Made by a program: the position numbers and the translations under genes. Positions 22,431 through 30,675 of a stretch of 33,124 nucleotides of DNA are shown here, piece after piece. This stretch comes from a virus: positions 1-33,124 of the IMG/VR virus record IMGVR_UViG_3300032242_002795. One strand, 5' to 3'. Numbering within the stretch: position 1 is the stretch's first letter; every line of letters starts with the position of its first letter. Below the pieces are notes generated by a model. The model searched no databases and had not been told where the DNA came from. It saw only the letters and a program-made list of their open reading frames with translations.

Positions 22431-22507
22431 CTGCCCTTAGCTCAACTGGATAGAGCACGGGACTTCTACTCCCGGGGTTGAGGGTTCAAATCCTTCAGGG
22501 CAGGCCA
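22431..22507 (+). tRNA. tRNA-Arg (TCT)
   Basis: 77 nt, acceptor CTGCCCT/AGGGCAG, loop CTTCTAC, CCA encoded. Reads AGA/AGG. Confidence 0.93.
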
Positions 22508-22530
22508 CACCACGTATAAGTATCTTGTAT

Positions 22531-23031
22531 ATGGAACCAAAACCAAACTCAGCCAAGGGCAGGATCAGTTACGATGCAGATGTAGGCGGTGCGATCATTC
22601 CTTTTTTCAACAGGAATGTAAGCGAATATCCTACCGAAGCAGGCGGACCCAAGTTTGATCTAGTTCCGGTCACCAAGCAAAAAGATCTCATGATCAACCA
22701 TGCCAGGATGTATGCTCAACAGGAGTATGATCGTATCATGGAACTGGTAGCAGTGCTGGAAAAGCAGGCCCTGCAGATCAAGCGGCGCTTGGAGATCACG
22801 GATGCAGTGCATGCCGCAGTGTATCAGTTCCAGCCTGTGATGGGCAAGGAGTACTGGTTGGCCTGGGACAAGAGAAAGAACCATATGCTGTTGACACAGC
22901 ATGGTCCCAACGATTGGTCCAGTTCGGCGCCGGAAGACTACGAGTACCAGGCCCAGGTCCGGTACATGGGAGACCATACATGGCTTGAGCTGAATGTTGC
23001 AGAAATACAACAGTCGGTGGATCCAAAATAA
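22531..23031 (+). CDS. DUF2452-like protein
   Basis: 166 residues from ATG 22531 (an in-frame TTG at 22525 is possible). Pattern of DUF2452: 'EAGGPKFDLVPVTKQ', a long helix 'YDRIMELVAVLEKQALQIKR' continuing RLEI, then 'YQFQPVMGKEYWLAWDKRKN', 'SAPEDYEYQAQVRYMGDHTW'. The family is widespread and uncharacterised. It follows tRNA-Arg by 23 nt with no SD, so its mRNA 5' end may be made by tRNA 3' processing. Confidence 0.8.
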   Translation: MEPKPNSAKGRISYDADVGGAIIPFFNRNVSEYPTEAGGPKFDLVPVTKQKDLMINHARMYAQQEYDRIMELVAVLEKQALQIKRRLEITDAVHAAVYQFQPVMGKEYWLAWDKRKNHMLLTQHGPNDWSSSAPEDYEYQAQVRYMGDHTWLELNVAEIQQSVDPK

Positions 23032-23067
23032 ATTTTTAGGATTTTTGCCATTTTATCAAGAACTTGG

Positions 23068-23096
23068 TTGACACAAAGACTAAATAAACATATACT
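23068..23096 (+). promoter_or_regulatory. Sigma70-type promoter of a short transcript
   Basis: TTGACA, 17-nt spacer (which contains a TAAATA), TATACT; the -10 context TATACTAGACA is the same as in the 22308 promoter. A terminator lies ~260 nt downstream. Confidence 0.8.
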
Positions 23097-23145
23097 AGAC
23101 ACATAGGTTGCAGTAATGCTTCTTATACCAAAAACAGGAAAAACA

Positions 23146-23298
23146 ATGCAAGCACTTTCGTTATCACTCGTTAGCAAACATACAAGCCTATCATGCATAA
23201 GCATGCCAGTGGCCTTGTGGTCTGCGAATGAGATTTATGGTACGAATGATCGCCCACAAGGTTTTACCAAGGTCCAAGGAGATGAGCGGGATGTCTAG
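23146..23298 (+). CDS. Possible 50-residue peptide on a short early transcript
   Basis: ATG 23146 is preceded by AGGAA at 5 nt, giving a 50-residue product 'MQALSLSLVSKHTSLSCISM...'. An in-frame ATG at 23116 would add ten residues but has no SD. The ORF fills most of the unit between a near-ideal sigma70 promoter and an intrinsic terminator. The unit could instead be a small RNA. No family recognised. Confidence 0.45.
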   Translation: MQALSLSLVSKHTSLSCISMPVALWSANEIYGTNDRPQGFTKVQGDERDV

Positions 23299-23327
23299 TT
23301 AACTAGAACAACCAATCAACTTTAAGG

Positions 23328-23359
23328 ACCCTGGAACAGAAATGTTACCAGGGTTTTTT
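23328..23359 (+). terminator. Intrinsic terminator
   Basis: ACCCTGG (23328-23334) pairs with CCAGGGT (23348-23354), extended by AAC/GTT around a bulge, followed by a T run to 23359. Confidence 0.8.
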
Positions 23360-23546
23360 ATTGGGGTTAGGCAAGGCGCTTTCAAACGCAAGCCAGTGAT
23401 CCCCGAGTGTGAATATGAGGAAACGAGGTCCTCGCTGGGCACTATAACAGCCGGCAAACGGGCGGCCTACCGGATGAAACTGTGGCGAAAACGCAGGAGT
23501 ATAAATGGTAGCGTATCCAAGCACATCATCCTCATGGAGGAATCAA
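23360..23546 (+). other. Intergenic stretch, structured but unassigned
   Basis: Between a terminator and a short ORF. Several short hairpins can be drawn (GGGGTT with GATCCCC; GCG-AAAA-CGC). A Met-initiated frame at 23342-23596 begins inside the terminator and has odd composition, so I do not call it. A leader RNA for the following short ORF is possible. Confidence 0.3.
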
Positions 23547-23639
23547 ATGGTGTGCTTCGATACCCACATTGGATGGCCAAGCCTAACCGACTCTGAATCG
23601 GCTGGCGGCAGGTTGCGGACGCAACAACCAGTGTGGTAA
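23547..23639 (+). CDS. Possible 30-residue miniprotein with a strong SD
   Basis: ATG 23547 has a full GGAGG (23536-23540) at 6-nt spacing, the same arrangement as uvsX and the omega gene. It encodes 30 residues starting MVCFDTHIGWPSLTDSESAG and ending in QQPVW-stop. Its TAA stop is the first half of a TAAATA late promoter motif. No family recognised; the strong SD is the main support. Confidence 0.45.
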   Translation: MVCFDTHIGWPSLTDSESAGGRLRTQQPVW

Positions 23640-23642
23640 ATA
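23636..23642 (+). promoter_or_regulatory. Late promoter (GTAAATA)
   Basis: It ends 22 nt before the ATG at 23665, with a GAGGA SD between, and overlaps the stop of the miniprotein ORF. Confidence 0.5.
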
Positions 23643-23664
23643 ATACATTATTGAGGAACGCACA

Positions 23665-23883
23665 ATGAGCATTTATCTAGAACAGTACTACGGTGATGGC
23701 GACGCAGACCAAGCCAACTATTGCCGCAACTTGGAAATGAAGATCCATTACCTGATGCAACAGATGGCGGCCGCTGGCATCCTCAAAGACGTCAATGGCA
23801 AGAAGATCACAGCGGATCTGCCAGATGATGTCACAAGCGATGCTGAAGCTGTTAGGGCCAGCATTGATCCAGAAAATTTCTGA
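23665..23883 (+). CDS. Small unknown protein
   Basis: 72 residues with SD TTGAGGA and an upstream TAAATA. It is acidic with a helical middle ('NLEMKIHYLMQQMAAAGILK') and 'DVNGKKITADLPDD'. No family recognised. It is followed by a 7-bp hairpin (CTGTTGT/ACAACAG, 23885-23904) without a T run, then the promoter of the tRNA-Leu/large RNA unit. Confidence 0.7.
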   Translation: MSIYLEQYYGDGDADQANYCRNLEMKIHYLMQQMAAAGILKDVNGKKITADLPDDVTSDAEAVRASIDPENF

Positions 23884-23910
23884 TCTGTTGTTTCAAGACA
23901 ACAGCAGAGG

Positions 23911-23939
23911 TTGACGTAGCACCGCAATGGTGTTACACT
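23911..23939 (+). promoter_or_regulatory. Sigma70-type promoter of the tRNA-Leu / large RNA unit
   Basis: TTGACG, 17-nt spacer, TACACT. Predicted start about 23946, reading into tRNA-Leu and the structured RNA region with no terminator visible before it. Confidence 0.6.
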
Positions 23940-23991
23940 ATGAACTTGAACTGCTAACAAGCAGACGAAGATTGTTCATTAAAAATCAAAT

Positions 23992-24075
23992 GCCCCGGTG
24001 GTGAAATGGTAGACACGCTAGTCTTAGGAACTAGTGTCGAAAGGCGTGTCGGTTCGAGTCCGACCTGGGGCACCA
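23992..24075 (+). tRNA. tRNA-Leu (TAG)
   Basis: 84 nt, acceptor GCCCCGG/CTGGGGC, loop CTTAGGA, extended variable arm as expected for Leu, CCA encoded. The 21-bp stem of the next RNA element starts 3 nt after CCA. Confidence 0.93.
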
Positions 24076-24077
24076 TT

Positions 24078-24314
24078 ATTTCACATGTCAAACCACACAA
24101 GGTTGCCGGTGCCGTTAGGTACCCGGATGTAGTCATCAACTGGCTGACGGGCCAGCTACATTCGGTGTTACATGAAGCAGGGGGGCTGGGATAAGCTCTG
24201 AGTGACGGATCACACCTTGGATAGTAATGACGAAGACAACGAAGCAGTAGACGTTACTGTGGGACCCTGAGTGGTACTGTGTTGGAGTTCCTAGTGTGGT
24301 TTGACATGTGAAAT
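24078..24314 (+). ncRNA. 237-nt RNA element closed by a perfect 21-bp stem
   Basis: 24078-24098 and 24294-24314 are perfectly complementary over 21 bp. Inside, ATGTAG (24127-24132)/CTACAT (24156-24161) encloses CTGGC/GCCAG, and AGTAA/TTACT and GGTGT/ACACC pairs are possible. There is no convincing ORF. It starts 3 nt after the CCA of tRNA-Leu. It may be a stable small RNA comparable in position to T4 RNAs C and D, or the 5' domain of the larger RNA that follows. Confidence 0.65.
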
Positions 24315-25179
24315 TGAAAGTTTGGGGGCATAGCCTCTTTAAGATAAGCGTGGTGACACGCCCAAAGCAGATGAGTCCTACACTCCTGCGCCAGCAATGG
24401 TCTATCTATGCAAGCCTGCTCACTACCGCGAGGTAGCGATCACTGATAAGACCGGTGGTTGTAACAATGAAGCAAGTGTTGGGGAAAGAATGTGTATCGA
24501 CTGGCCCGCAAGGGAACCAGGGTGCATGAAAAGTAACAGGTGGTGCTGACTTCCCAACAAAACCAACTTGCCAATTGGTATGAGAAAGGGTAGTACATTG
24601 GTTCGAGGGGTTGCACCCAAGGGCTCGTGTGCAATGTGAGTGGTTGGTGGACCTAGCAATAGGGACACAGATCGCAAAACATCACTGATTACTCCGCAAG
24701 AGGAAAGGTATGTGGTGAGTTGTATTGTGTGGTTCAAAAGATCATACAGCAACTGAGTCAGCTCATCGCGGTAGGTTGTTATAGGCTAATGGTAGGCCAT
24801 TTCTCTGTTAAAGAAACGACTGTGGGTTCAACTCCCACTAACAAATCAAAAACGCAAAGACTGACTCGGTCATGTGTGAAAAGCATCTAACACTCGACAC
24901 GCAAGTGAATTGAGTTTAGTGAAGCTCGCAAGGTGACACTAATTTGTGAATGGGGGTTCGTAACGCCTTAGCGGGTGTGAATGGGTCGCAAGCTCAACGG
25001 AATGGATTTCACAGAGTAGCACATGATGACACGCCTACTGCCTGGCGTTAAAAACGGCGATGTTGGCAACAGACTGGGAGATCCGCAAGGACCCTAGTGG
25101 AAGTCGAGAGAAGGTATGCTCGCAAGGTGTACTATAATGCTCGAGGTGTTGTTGGGTTAGCATGTATTCTCAGTGCGCC
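24315..25179 (+). ncRNA. Giant structured RNA candidate (GOLLD/ROOL-like) with embedded tRNA-Asn
   Basis: 865 nt without a credible ORF in a genome that is otherwise tightly coding. GNRA-capped or closely similar hairpins recur: CGTG-GTGA-CACG (24349-24360, inside a TTTGGG/CCCAAA three-way junction 24321-24366), CTACC-GCGA-GGTAG (24423-24436), CCC-GCAA-GGG (24505-24514, extended by CTGG/CCAG), CAC-GCAA-GTG (24898-24907), TCC-GCAA-GGA (25082-25091, extended by CTGGG/CCTAG-type pairs). CGCAA pentaloops include TGGGT-CGCAA-GCTCA (24982-24996). A tRNA-Asn-like domain is bracketed by a 10-bp helix (24752-24761 with 24861-24870). Size, ornate folding, phage origin and tRNA context match GOLLD/ROOL RNAs; the exact ends and family are unproven. 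Confidence 0.7.
24775..24846 (+). tRNA. tRNA-Asn (GTT)-like domain inside the large RNA
   Basis: A complete cloverleaf: acceptor GTTGTTA/TAACAAA (first pair G-A mismatched), D stem GGCT/GGCC, anticodon stem TTTCT/AGAAA with loop CTGTTAA, 5-nt variable loop, T stem GTGGG/CCCAC. No CCA is encoded, unlike nearly all other tRNAs here, and a normal tRNA-Asn (GTT) exists at 28344. It may be a structural domain rather than a decoding tRNA. Confidence 0.8.
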
Positions 25180-25286
25180 ACTTTATATAAAAACACACTG
25201 AGCCTGGGAGTCGCGCTCCGGGTCGTTTCAGATAAGCAGAGACCTGAAAGCTATGGTCTAATTGGCAGTGTGTTTTTATATAAAGT
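25180..25286 (+). ncRNA. 107-nt RNA element with perfect 21-bp stem and possible pseudoknot
   Basis: 25180-25200 and 25266-25286 pair perfectly over 21 bp. Inside, TTTCA (25226-25230)/TGAAA (25245-25249) and AGACC (25240-25244)/GGTCT (25255-25259) interleave as an H-type pseudoknot, beside a GGAG/CTCC hairpin. It lies 5 nt upstream of tRNA-Tyr. It could be a separate stable RNA or the 3' domain of the large RNA. Confidence 0.65.
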
Positions 25287-25291
25287 TTCAT

Positions 25292-25378
25292 GGAGATGTG
25301 TGCCGAGCGGCGAAGGCAGCTGACTGTAAATCAGTGACATCAGAAACACCGTAGGTTCGATTCCTACCGTCTCCACCA
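25292..25378 (+). tRNA. tRNA-Tyr (GTA)
   Basis: 87 nt, acceptor GGAGATG/CGTCTCC, loop CTGTAAA, long variable arm as normal for bacterial Tyr, CCA encoded. Confidence 0.93.
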
Positions 25379-25385
25379 AGTTCAT

Positions 25386-25461
25386 GCACGGTTCGTCTAT
25401 CGGTTTAGGACACTGGCCTTTCACGTCAGTAAGACGGGTTCGATTCCCGTACCGTGTACCA
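25386..25461 (+). tRNA. tRNA-Glu (TTC)
   Basis: 76 nt, acceptor GCACGGT/ACCGTGT (first pair G-T), loop CTTTCAC, CCA encoded. Confidence 0.92.
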
Positions 25462-25467
25462 AGTTTA

Positions 25468-25542
25468 GGTCTCAAAGTGTTCATGGACGCACATCAGCCT
25501 GTCACGCTGAAAGAAGGGGATCGTTACCCCTTGAGACCGCCA
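25468..25542 (+). tRNA. tRNA-Asp (GTC)
   Basis: 75 nt, acceptor GGTCTCA/TGAGACC, loop CTGTCAC, CCA encoded. The T loop is ATCGTTA, with A in place of the usual T54. Confidence 0.92.
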
Positions 25543-25750
25543 AGTTTTGAGAGTGTCAGCAAGAGAAAGACTCGCTAGAAGGCTTCTTCGAAGAGCCGAC
25601 TAATGAAAAAGAAGGACGGGTTCGAGTCCCGTAAACGCATCGGAGCACCTTTGTCAAGTATCCCAAGTGGCGTACCGAGACCTTGCCGGCCTTGTATAAT
25701 AAGGTGAATGGTTCCGATAACATGGGCGGAACTACTCTCAAATTCAATAT
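25543..25750 (+). other. Inter-tRNA stretch with an orphan T-arm-like hairpin
   Basis: 208 nt without a tRNA or credible ORF. ACGGG-TTCGAGT-CCCGT (25616-25632) is a textbook T arm, but no matching acceptor, anticodon arm or CCA can be found around it. Other hairpins: GGCT...AGCC (25581-25597) and GTTCCG/CGGAAC (25711-25732). It may be a decayed tRNA or another structured RNA using a T-loop module. Confidence 0.4.
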
Positions 25751-25825
25751 GTATCCCTAGTGTTAACGGCAGCACGACAGTCTCCAAAACTGCTAGTGGG
25801 GGTTCGAATCCCTCGGGGTATGCCA
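25751..25825 (+). tRNA. tRNA-Trp (CCA)
   Basis: 75 nt, acceptor GTATCCC/GGGGTAT with two G-T pairs, loop CTCCAAA, CCA end encoded. Confidence 0.9.
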
Positions 25826-25834
25826 CTTCAACAT

Positions 25835-25911
25835 GCACAGGTACCAGAGCGACTAATGGCGCGGATTGCAAATCCGTTGATTCGTGGGTTTGAGTCCCAC
25901 CCTGTGCTCCA
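25835..25911 (+). tRNA. tRNA-Cys (GCA)
   Basis: 77 nt, acceptor GCACAGG/CCTGTGC, loop TTGCAAA, CCA encoded. Confidence 0.93.
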
Positions 25912-25916
25912 TATAT

Positions 25917-25992
25917 GCCAAGATAGCTCATCAGGTAGAGCACTAGTTTGAAGCACTAGGTGTGGCTGGTTCGAGTCCAGCTCTTGGTACCA
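25917..25992 (+). tRNA. tRNA-Phe (GAA)
   Basis: 76 nt, acceptor GCCAAGA/TCTTGGT, loop TTGAAGC, CCA encoded. Confidence 0.93.
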
Positions 25993-26000
25993 ACGGTTAT

Positions 26001-26074
26001 TGCGGGTAGGGTGGTCACCACTCCAGTCTCATAAGCTCGGAGCATCGTCAGTTCGAATCTGTCACCCGCTTCCA
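26001..26074 (+). tRNA. tRNA-Met (CAT), irregular
   Basis: 74 nt, acceptor TGCGGGT/ACCCGCT with an unpaired first position (T-T), loop CTCATAA, one mismatch each in anticodon and T stems, CCA encoded. The open 1-72 pair recalls initiator tRNAs, but the GGG/CCC anticodon-stem signature is absent. Confidence 0.8.
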
Positions 26075-26081
26075 ATATTAT

Positions 26082-26157
26082 CTCTCTGAAGCGTTATCTG
26101 GTTGCGTACACGGTTTGGGGCCGTGTGGTCAAGGTTCGAATCCTTGCAGGGAGACCA
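26082..26157 (+). tRNA. tRNA-Pro (TGG)
   Basis: 76 nt, acceptor CTCTCTG/CAGGGAG, loop TTTGGGG, CCA encoded. Confidence 0.93.
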
Positions 26158-26162
26158 ATCAT

Positions 26163-26236
26163 GCCCTTTTAGTTTAATGGTAAAACAACTGTTTTGTAAT
26201 CAGTTGATGGCAGTTCGATTCTGTCATGGGGCACCA
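26163..26236 (+). tRNA. tRNA-Thr (TGT)
   Basis: 74 nt, acceptor GCCCTTT/ATGGGGC with one mismatch, loop TTTGTAA, CCA encoded. Confidence 0.9.
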
Positions 26237-26241
26237 ATCAT

Positions 26242-26317
26242 GGGCGTATAACTCAGTAGGTAGAGTAGCTGACTCTTAATCAGTTTGTCGCGGGTTCGAT
26301 CCCCTCTGCGCCCACCA
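26242..26317 (+). tRNA. tRNA-Lys (CTT)
   Basis: 76 nt, acceptor GGGCGTA/TGCGCCC, loop CTCTTAA, CCA encoded. Confidence 0.93.
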
Positions 26318-26339
26318 ATTTTACAAGGAGGAAATTACC

Positions 26340-26381
26340 ATGGGAGATGATGGTAAATGTAACAAACGATTGTACCCTTAG
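26340..26381 (+). CDS. Possible 13-codon ORF overlapping tRNA-Lys (TTT)
   Basis: ATG 26340 has the strongest SD in the window (AAGGAGG, 26325-26331, 8-nt spacing). It encodes MGDDGKCNKRLYP, and its TAG stop lies at tRNA positions 8-10. It may be a leader peptide whose translation competes with tRNA maturation, or the SD may serve a structural role. Confidence 0.35.
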   Translation: MGDDGKCNKRLYP

Positions 26382-26448
26382 CTCAGTAGGTTAGAGCATC
26401 TGACTTTTAATCAGAGGGTCCTGGGTTCGAGTCCCAGAGGGTACACCA
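26372..26448 (+). tRNA. tRNA-Lys (TTT)
   Basis: 77 nt, acceptor GTACCCT/AGGGTAC, loop CTTTTAA, CCA encoded. Its 5' end overlaps the tiny ORF. Confidence 0.93.
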
Positions 26449-26459
26449 TTTGTTTACTA

Positions 26460-26526
26460 AAACACATTTGACTAAACTCGGGTTCATCCGTGTGGTCATT
26501 CAGTTGATCCTATATCAAGTGTGTTT
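26460..26526 (+). ncRNA. Small RNA element closed by a 12-bp stem between two tRNAs
   Basis: 26460-26471 pairs with 26515-26526 over 12 bp (one G-T), with a 43-nt interior. A further ATTTG/CAAAT pair lies outside. It is the third stem-bracketed element of the cluster and has no ORF. Confidence 0.45.
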
Positions 26527-26540
26527 CAATAAGCAAATAT

Positions 26541-26614
26541 GCCCGGATAGTTAAATGGTATAACGGTCGCTTGATAAGCGATTATTACAAGTTCAATTCT
26601 TGTTCTGGGCACCA
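26541..26614 (+). tRNA. tRNA-Ile (GAT)
   Basis: 74 nt, acceptor GCCCGGA/TCTGGGC, loop TTGATAA, CCA encoded. The final A of CCA is also the A of the next ATG at 26614. Confidence 0.92.
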
Positions 26615-28343: not shown

Positions 28344-28419
28344 TCCGCAGTAGCTCAGTCGGTAGAGTAGATGACTGTTAATCATTTGGTCGGTGGTTCG
28401 AGCCCACCCTGTGGAGCCA
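28344..28419 (+). tRNA. tRNA-Asn (GTT), canonical
   Basis: 76 nt, acceptor TCCGCAG/CTGTGGA, loop CTGTTAA, CCA encoded. This is the regular Asn tRNA, making the one inside the large RNA redundant for decoding. Confidence 0.93.
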
Positions 28420-30428: not shown

Positions 30429-30499
30429 GTGGCCGTAGTGTAGCGGTAGCACCCGAGATTGTGATTCTCTTAGTATGGGTTCAACTCCCATCGGTCACC
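30429..30499 (+). tRNA. tRNA-His (GTG) without encoded CCA, on an extended acceptor helix
   Basis: 71 nt, acceptor GTGGCCG/CGGTCAC, loop TTGTGAT, discriminator C as expected for His. The 3' end reads CCCT, so CCA must be added. Outside the acceptor, CACTTAGG (30420-30427) pairs with CCTAAGTG (30500-30507). No G-1 is encoded. Confidence 0.88.
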
Positions 30500-30517
30500 C
30501 CTAAGTGTTTTGTCATT

Positions 30518-30599: not shown

Positions 30600-30675
30600 G
30601 CCGTCATGGTGTCAGTGGCTAGCACATCAGTTTGTGGAACTGAGAGAGTTGGATCGAAACCAACTGGCGGTACCA
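30600..30675 (+). tRNA. Second GTG-anticodon tRNA (His), atypical
   Basis: 76 nt, acceptor GCCGTCA/TGGCGGT, loop TTGTGGA, T loop ATCGAAA, CCA encoded. The discriminator is A rather than C and no G-1 is encoded, so charging with His is uncertain. Confidence 0.85.

Follow-up and report, generated by a model that had tools for sequence, protein, structure and literature searches.

The stretch of DNA analysed here, IMG/VR virus record IMGVR_UViG_3300032242_002795, is a virus fragment of 33,124 bases (the window), and its positions 24315-25179 specify a non-coding, highly structured RNA that is, with near certainty, a member of the known GOLLD family. The embedded tRNA in the linker of this GOLLD is a specialised, non-standard tRNA look-alike, and the comparison of related loci shows that this module is exchanged on a conserved GOLLD scaffold. 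The reading that we favour, and to which we would give an even chance, is that the RNA would form a cage and carry a tethered tRNA mimic, which would probably act as bait for a tRNA-recognising factor. For GOLLD a cage structure but so far no function has been described. A conserved, exchangeable tRNA-like payload points to where selection acts, and it raises the questions of what the module binds and why its anticodon loop changes between close relatives.

The Rfam covariance model RF02032 (GOLLD) matches positions 24712-25176 on the plus strand over its whole length (model positions 1-416) with 191.6 bits and an E-value of 1e-52 to 1e-53, well above the curated cut-off of 150 bits. A search with the ROOL covariance model, which had been proposed together with that for GOLLD, gave no match at E<=1 within 22500-26600. 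ROOL resembles the RNA described here in being a large phage RNA near tRNA genes and in forming a cage (PMC12286853), but its sequence and fold differ. The earlier note, made from the letters alone, had suggested a GOLLD/ROOL-class RNA or a new family of that kind; the Rfam results uphold GOLLD and rule out both ROOL and a new family. The Rfam model spans the 3' half of GOLLD alone, and the 5' half was assessed by gathering relatives. Besides the conserved 3' domain (24712-25176), the RNA comprises a 5' domain at 24320-24711 (plus strand), which corresponds to the cap domain in the env-38 structure, lies outside the Rfam model and was delimited by full-length alignment to 43 relatives. The resulting bounds, 24320-25176, hold to within about 30 nt and bear out the span of 24315-25179 originally proposed. 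The alignable 5' domain begins at approximately 24345, which leaves the start of GOLLD uncertain by about 30 nt. The closest relative, at locus L084, is 86% identical over 24344-25200, and a conserved 5' motif, ACAGGUGGUGCUG, also occurs in GOLLDs without a tRNA. In sum of its parts, namely a full-model 3' domain above the cut-off, a long 5' domain, a length of more than 800 nt, a phage context, a tRNA array and a variable linker capable of holding a tRNA, the RNA is like GOLLD RF02032/env-38. It differs from the latter in that its linker carries a CCA-less module belonging to a subclass with eroded acceptor stems, and in the long stalks on both sides.

The 865 nt lack a credible open reading frame, as had been noticed at the outset: each frame contains 10-19 stops, and the longest stop-free run measures 120 codons and lies on the minus strand. 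The stops in all frames, together with base-pair covariation, rule out a protein-coding reading of 24315-25179. At least five hairpins capped by GNRA tetraloops had been reported, and nine with stems of at least 3 bp were counted, compared with 2.25 +/- 1.46 (maximum 7) in 500 Markov shuffles. The hexamer CGCAAG occurs seven times where 0.2 occurrences are expected. The repetition of the CGCAA "pentaloops" described earlier is thus real, but they do not make up a separate class, as most are GCAA loops of the GNRA type with a closing C-G pair. The minimum free energy of the region is -295, against -262 +/- 14 (z -2.3). Stronger evidence for a conserved fold comes from an alignment of 44 full-length relatives (A1), the consensus of which has 213 predicted pairs, 159 of them with compensatory changes on both sides. 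Paired cells amount to 97.0% in this alignment, 78.1% after shuffling and 37-41% with the partners slid, and the covariation score is 0.560 compared with 0.200 +/- 0.004 in shuffled and 0.07-0.085 in slid alignments; none of 500 shuffles equalled the real alignment. Prediction and testing of the consensus structure used one and the same alignment, which favours it somewhat, but the margin is very large. Covariation, for which R-scape had been suggested, was hence confirmed with other statistics. Consensus helices 1-22 constitute the long, less conserved 5' domain, and nearly all of them show compensatory changes. These data support a conserved structure that spans both the 5' and the 3' GOLLD domains.

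GOLLD occurs in phages and prophages, often near tRNA genes, and the window conforms to this pattern. It encodes a tail sheath, a tail tube, a terminase, a single-strand-binding protein and UvsX, and ARAGORN predicted 31 tRNA genes. As first noted, the RNA lies inside a tRNA array (23992-26614), which surrounds it on the same (plus) strand. The terminase is most similar to those of PA5oct-type jumbo phages of Pseudomonas (53-54% identity), followed by Sinorhizobium phage Phosso and Agrobacterium phage Atu_ph07 (approximately 51%). The label "T4-like" used earlier is therefore right in a loose sense, but with a terminase 54% identical to those of PA5oct-type jumbo phages the virus does not, strictly speaking, count among the relatives of T4. 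In 50 records with a close UvsX (76-89% identity), mostly fragments, no GOLLD match was found, which suggests that this phage lineage does not carry GOLLD throughout. The search for relatives of a neighbouring protein of 483 amino acids found none, a promoter scan yielded a signal no higher than in shuffled sequences, and BLAST of the tRNA array against named phages returned mostly tRNA matches.

The tRNA-like module is located at 24775-24847 (plus strand), where ARAGORN calls a tRNA-Asn with anticodon GTT and the Rfam tRNA model scores 60.4 bits; six of its seven acceptor pairs are formed and no CCA is encoded. The Rfam alignment places it in the variable linker, and a 7-bp helix, GAGTCAG (24755-24761) with CTGACTC (24861-24867), closes the linker loop around it. 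In A1 this is helix 24, with 99.7% of its cells paired and compensatory changes at three pairs. The D, anticodon and T arms of the module correspond to helices 26-28; because they are about 99% paired and contain many compensatory changes, the module is upheld as a structure. The "tRNA domain" of the earlier note is accordingly present, but it is not an ordinary tRNA. In a census of 58 distinct modules parsed from related, mostly phage GOLLDs, none encodes CCA, whereas 616 of the 638 other tRNAs at the same loci do (97%), as do 29 of the 30 other tRNAs in the window. Nor is a 7-bp acceptor stem found across the subclass: pairs 1-3 are formed in 45-55% of the modules and pairs 4-7 in 93-98%, compared with 94-100% at each acceptor position of the free tRNAs (n=638). 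ARAGORN selects for pairing, so that the contrast in CCA is cleaner than that in acceptor pairing. The module of this phage is among the less eroded ones, and all seven pairs exist in some others, for example at L172 and L221.

Such a module could still be functional in translation if GOLLD served as its carrier or precursor, with RNase P and 3' nucleases excising it and CCA being added before it took part in decoding as a working tRNA. This is unlikely in our view. Nearly all 58 modules have intact arms and a U33, ARAGORN calls most of those tried, and the six acceptor pairs in this phage would suit such a role; Kretsch et al. also refer to linker tRNAs as tRNAs, which an opened cage could expose (PMC12286853), and the missing CCA could, in principle, be supplied by a CCA-adding enzyme of the host. 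The uniform lack of an encoded CCA next to free tRNAs that nearly all possess it, and the unpaired outer acceptor in about half of the modules, argue against decoding. Furthermore, the phage already has an ordinary tRNA-Asn(GTT) with an encoded CCA at 28344-28419 (plus strand; ARAGORN), and thus needs no embedded module for this anticodon. In Mycobacterium aubagnense, GOLLD likewise sits in a tRNA cluster with a tRNA inside, which is degenerate there and was termed pseudo-tRNA, and no separate transcript of it was detected by Northern (PMC6582537). That is a single bacterial case; here about 58 distinct sequences, most of them from phages, follow the same rule and show module exchange and an anticodon bias. 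We consider it fairly probable that the module is not released as a working tRNA; it would then remain attached and play no decoding role.

tRNAs in the GOLLD linker have already been published (PMC12286853). A pattern that joins a T arm to a downstream GOLLD motif matched 101 stretches in IMG/VR, and GOLLD was present in 77 of the 79 records scanned from this pattern, 72 of them above the cut-off. GOLLDs retrieved with a tRNA-independent motif mostly span about 400 nt, which means that they contain no tRNA; tRNA-free GOLLDs mostly reach 220-335 bits, unlike the approximately 200 bits of the RNA described here. A linker tRNA also occurs in the phages Phosso, phiCbK, CcrKarma and DSS3_MAL1, whose GOLLDs score above the cut-off, and in a Mesorhizobium phage, which was recognised by its arrangement. 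The GOLLDs of the Caulobacter phages phiCbK and CcrKarma and of Phosso (165.3, 171.2 and 186.6 bits, respectively) likewise have this tRNA-like module in the linker, but with anticodons other than that found here, and Phosso has no further tRNA gene within 4 kb of its GOLLD. Those of phiCbK and CcrKarma are annotated merely as tRNA-Gly and tRNA-Lys, respectively. A tRNA-Gly, tRNA-Lys or tRNA-Asn annotated within a GOLLD calls for proof before it is taken to decode. Since phiCbK-like Caulobacter phages are long-standing laboratory phages, the arrangement is directly testable. In Bacteriophage DSS3_MAL1 (L165, 1500-2475) the GOLLD with its embedded tRNA-Arg is directly followed by a phage tmRNA gene. 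A contig of Thalassospira xianhensis (L273, 4919-5785, minus strand) shows that a bacterial genome, too, can contain the tRNA joined to the GOLLD motif. As judged by this pattern rather than by an Rfam score, it is presumably the GOLLD of a prophage; its module has anticodon CGT, all seven acceptor pairs and no CCA.

The exchange of modules is most evident at L209 and L211: their modules are only 60% identical, yet the sequence before the module (at least 231 nt) and after it (about 480 nt) is essentially the same. L172 and L188, as well as L178 and L215, display the same contrast at a higher background divergence. Over about 475 nt, phiCbK and CcrKarma differ almost solely in the anticodon loop (CGTCCTA versus CTCTTAA), and in BL57, an isolated phage with the same RNA, this loop reads CATCCTA. 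Chimeric assembly could explain an individual pair from metagenomes, but phiCbK, CcrKarma and BL57 are isolates, to which this does not apply. The modules of phiCbK and BL57 lack the universal U33, and the G33 or A33 found instead would be abnormal for decoding. NUU anticodons are carried by 47 of the 58 modules compared with 8% of the free tRNAs, and by 13 of 24 modules when each 85% cluster is counted once (p 2e-8, not corrected for phylogeny). Half of the modules fall into one cluster, and the anticodon bias thus partly reflects shared ancestry. The tRNA is not the sole variable part of GOLLD. This idea was ruled out by a divergence profile, in which other hairpin tips are equally variable between close relatives, and exchange is therefore not unique to the module.

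Alternatively, the linker might be a loop under no constraint, open to any insert, and the tRNA a passive filler derived from the surrounding array. The existence of tRNA-free GOLLDs and the disorder of the linker in the solved env-38 cage (PMC12286853) would be in line with this explanation. However, the module occupies one fixed site in dozens of contigs, its three arms show compensatory changes, and its pool is separate from that of the free tRNAs: among 638 free tRNAs compared with the modules, no pair was 80% identical over 60 nt. This speaks against random refilling of the module from the array, and we doubt that passive filling is the right explanation. Nor is there support for the module having been taken up recently from tRNAs nearby, as no close copy exists among the free tRNAs sampled. 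To judge from these comparisons, the module pool looks GOLLD-specific.

On both sides, GOLLD is directly adjoined by inverted repeats of 21-25 bp (24078-24102/24290-24314 and 25180-25200/25266-25286), which had been missed on first reading. The upstream repeat, 25 nt long and 96% complementary, delimits element C (24078-24314, plus strand), an unclassified structured RNA of about 237 nt that abuts the 5' end of GOLLD and has a fold z-score of -5.6. Homologues of element C, several of them near-identical, were found at about 14 loci. These loci include tRNA arrays of the phage contigs L084, L145, L154, L135, L149, L248 and L256, where the arms of 20-25 bp differ in sequence and still pair. Of 57 consensus pairs, 38 show changes on both sides in 11 sequences, some of which are weakly alignable. 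Element D (25180-25286, plus strand; z -5.7) abuts the 3' end and consists of a 21-bp stalk with fully complementary arms and an interior of 65 nt. Of 58 related GOLLDs, 44 have a stalk of 13-20 Watson-Crick pairs just downstream, nearly always within a few bases, whereas 12 pairs were attained in only a single one of the 58 shuffled controls; the arms of these downstream stalks, AAAACACAUU/AGUGUGUUU, are conserved and their interiors very different. Upstream, a stem of at least 12 Watson-Crick pairs is present within 330 nt in 34 of 49 GOLLDs versus 8 of 49 controls. The AAAACACAUU/AGUGUGUUU stalks recur elsewhere in GOLLD loci (in L084 and others, and at 26452-26540 in the window), with up to eight per locus by pattern count. 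By reading, element D resembles its counterpart in L226, and the interior that follows the GOLLD of L225 resembles that of the stalk at 26452-26540. Some interiors are common to distant contigs, as if exchanged.

Expression that rises during lysis is a trait of the GOLLD family. The GOLLD described here may be transcribed together with the tRNA array and could then be freed from the long array transcript by RNase III-like cleavage at the flanking stalks, in analogy to rRNA precursors. By analogy with env-38, the one GOLLD with a solved structure, which forms a homo-14-mer cage of D7 symmetry in cryo-EM (PMC12286853), it is likely to assemble into a cage. The linker of env-38 is disordered and faces the cage interior (PMC12286853), and the same D7 assembly would here direct up to 14 tRNA-like modules inwards. 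A serious rival to the bait reading is that the cage holds ribosomes, either to store those of the host or to shut them off, and that the module is a tether docking in a tRNA site. It is favoured by pull-downs in which ribosomes reportedly bound GOLLD, and by the size of the cage, which exceeds that of a ribosome (PMC12286853). The module, moreover, keeps the anticodon arm and not the acceptor end. We nevertheless rate ribosome docking as improbable; most GOLLDs found independently of the tRNA, at about 400 nt, lack the module, which makes a tRNA dispensable for a general GOLLD role. A bait or mimic fits better than a decoding tRNA, because the anticodon arm is kept, the charging end is lost and the anticodon loop changes between close relatives. 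That the factor baited is one that reads the anticodon is a tentative proposal, for which a precedent exists in phage tRNAs proposed to counter anticodon nucleases via changes in the anticodon loop (PMC10264068). Candidate targets would include an anticodon nuclease of the host, an enzyme that modifies or binds tRNAs, and the ribosome. More speculatively still, GOLLD cages could be scaffolds with an exchangeable tRNA-mimic payload, drawn from a GOLLD-specific, CCA-less, short-acceptor and NUU-biased pool with a fast-changing anticodon loop and swapped between phages as bait for those host factors that recognise anticodon arms. The AAAACACAUU/AGUGUGUUU stalks could then represent another group of small-RNA cassettes, exchangeable as well and processed from the transcript that contains GOLLD.

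Further upstream in the array, element B (23360-23660, plus strand) is a conserved non-coding stretch with 86% identity to L084 over 89 nt. It contains the motif GGATGGCCAAGCCTAACCGACTC...GGCAGGTTGCGGACGCAA and has homologues at about 19 loci (nhmmer). Neither element B nor element C matched any Rfam family, and BLAST found no match to them among named phages. A small open reading frame upstream of the array (23146-23298) encodes a peptide containing MPVALWSANEI, which is conserved in L084 (NMPVALWSATEI). The segment at 25543-25660 is tRNA-like with a clear T arm (GGACGGGTTCGAGTCCCGT) and was not called by ARAGORN; it may be a tRNA-Ser whose body is unusual or interrupted. Among the free tRNAs called in the window only one lacks CCA, a tRNA-His (GTG) at 30429-30501, which ends in ACCCC, and a second tRNA-His, with CCA, is located at 30600-30675.
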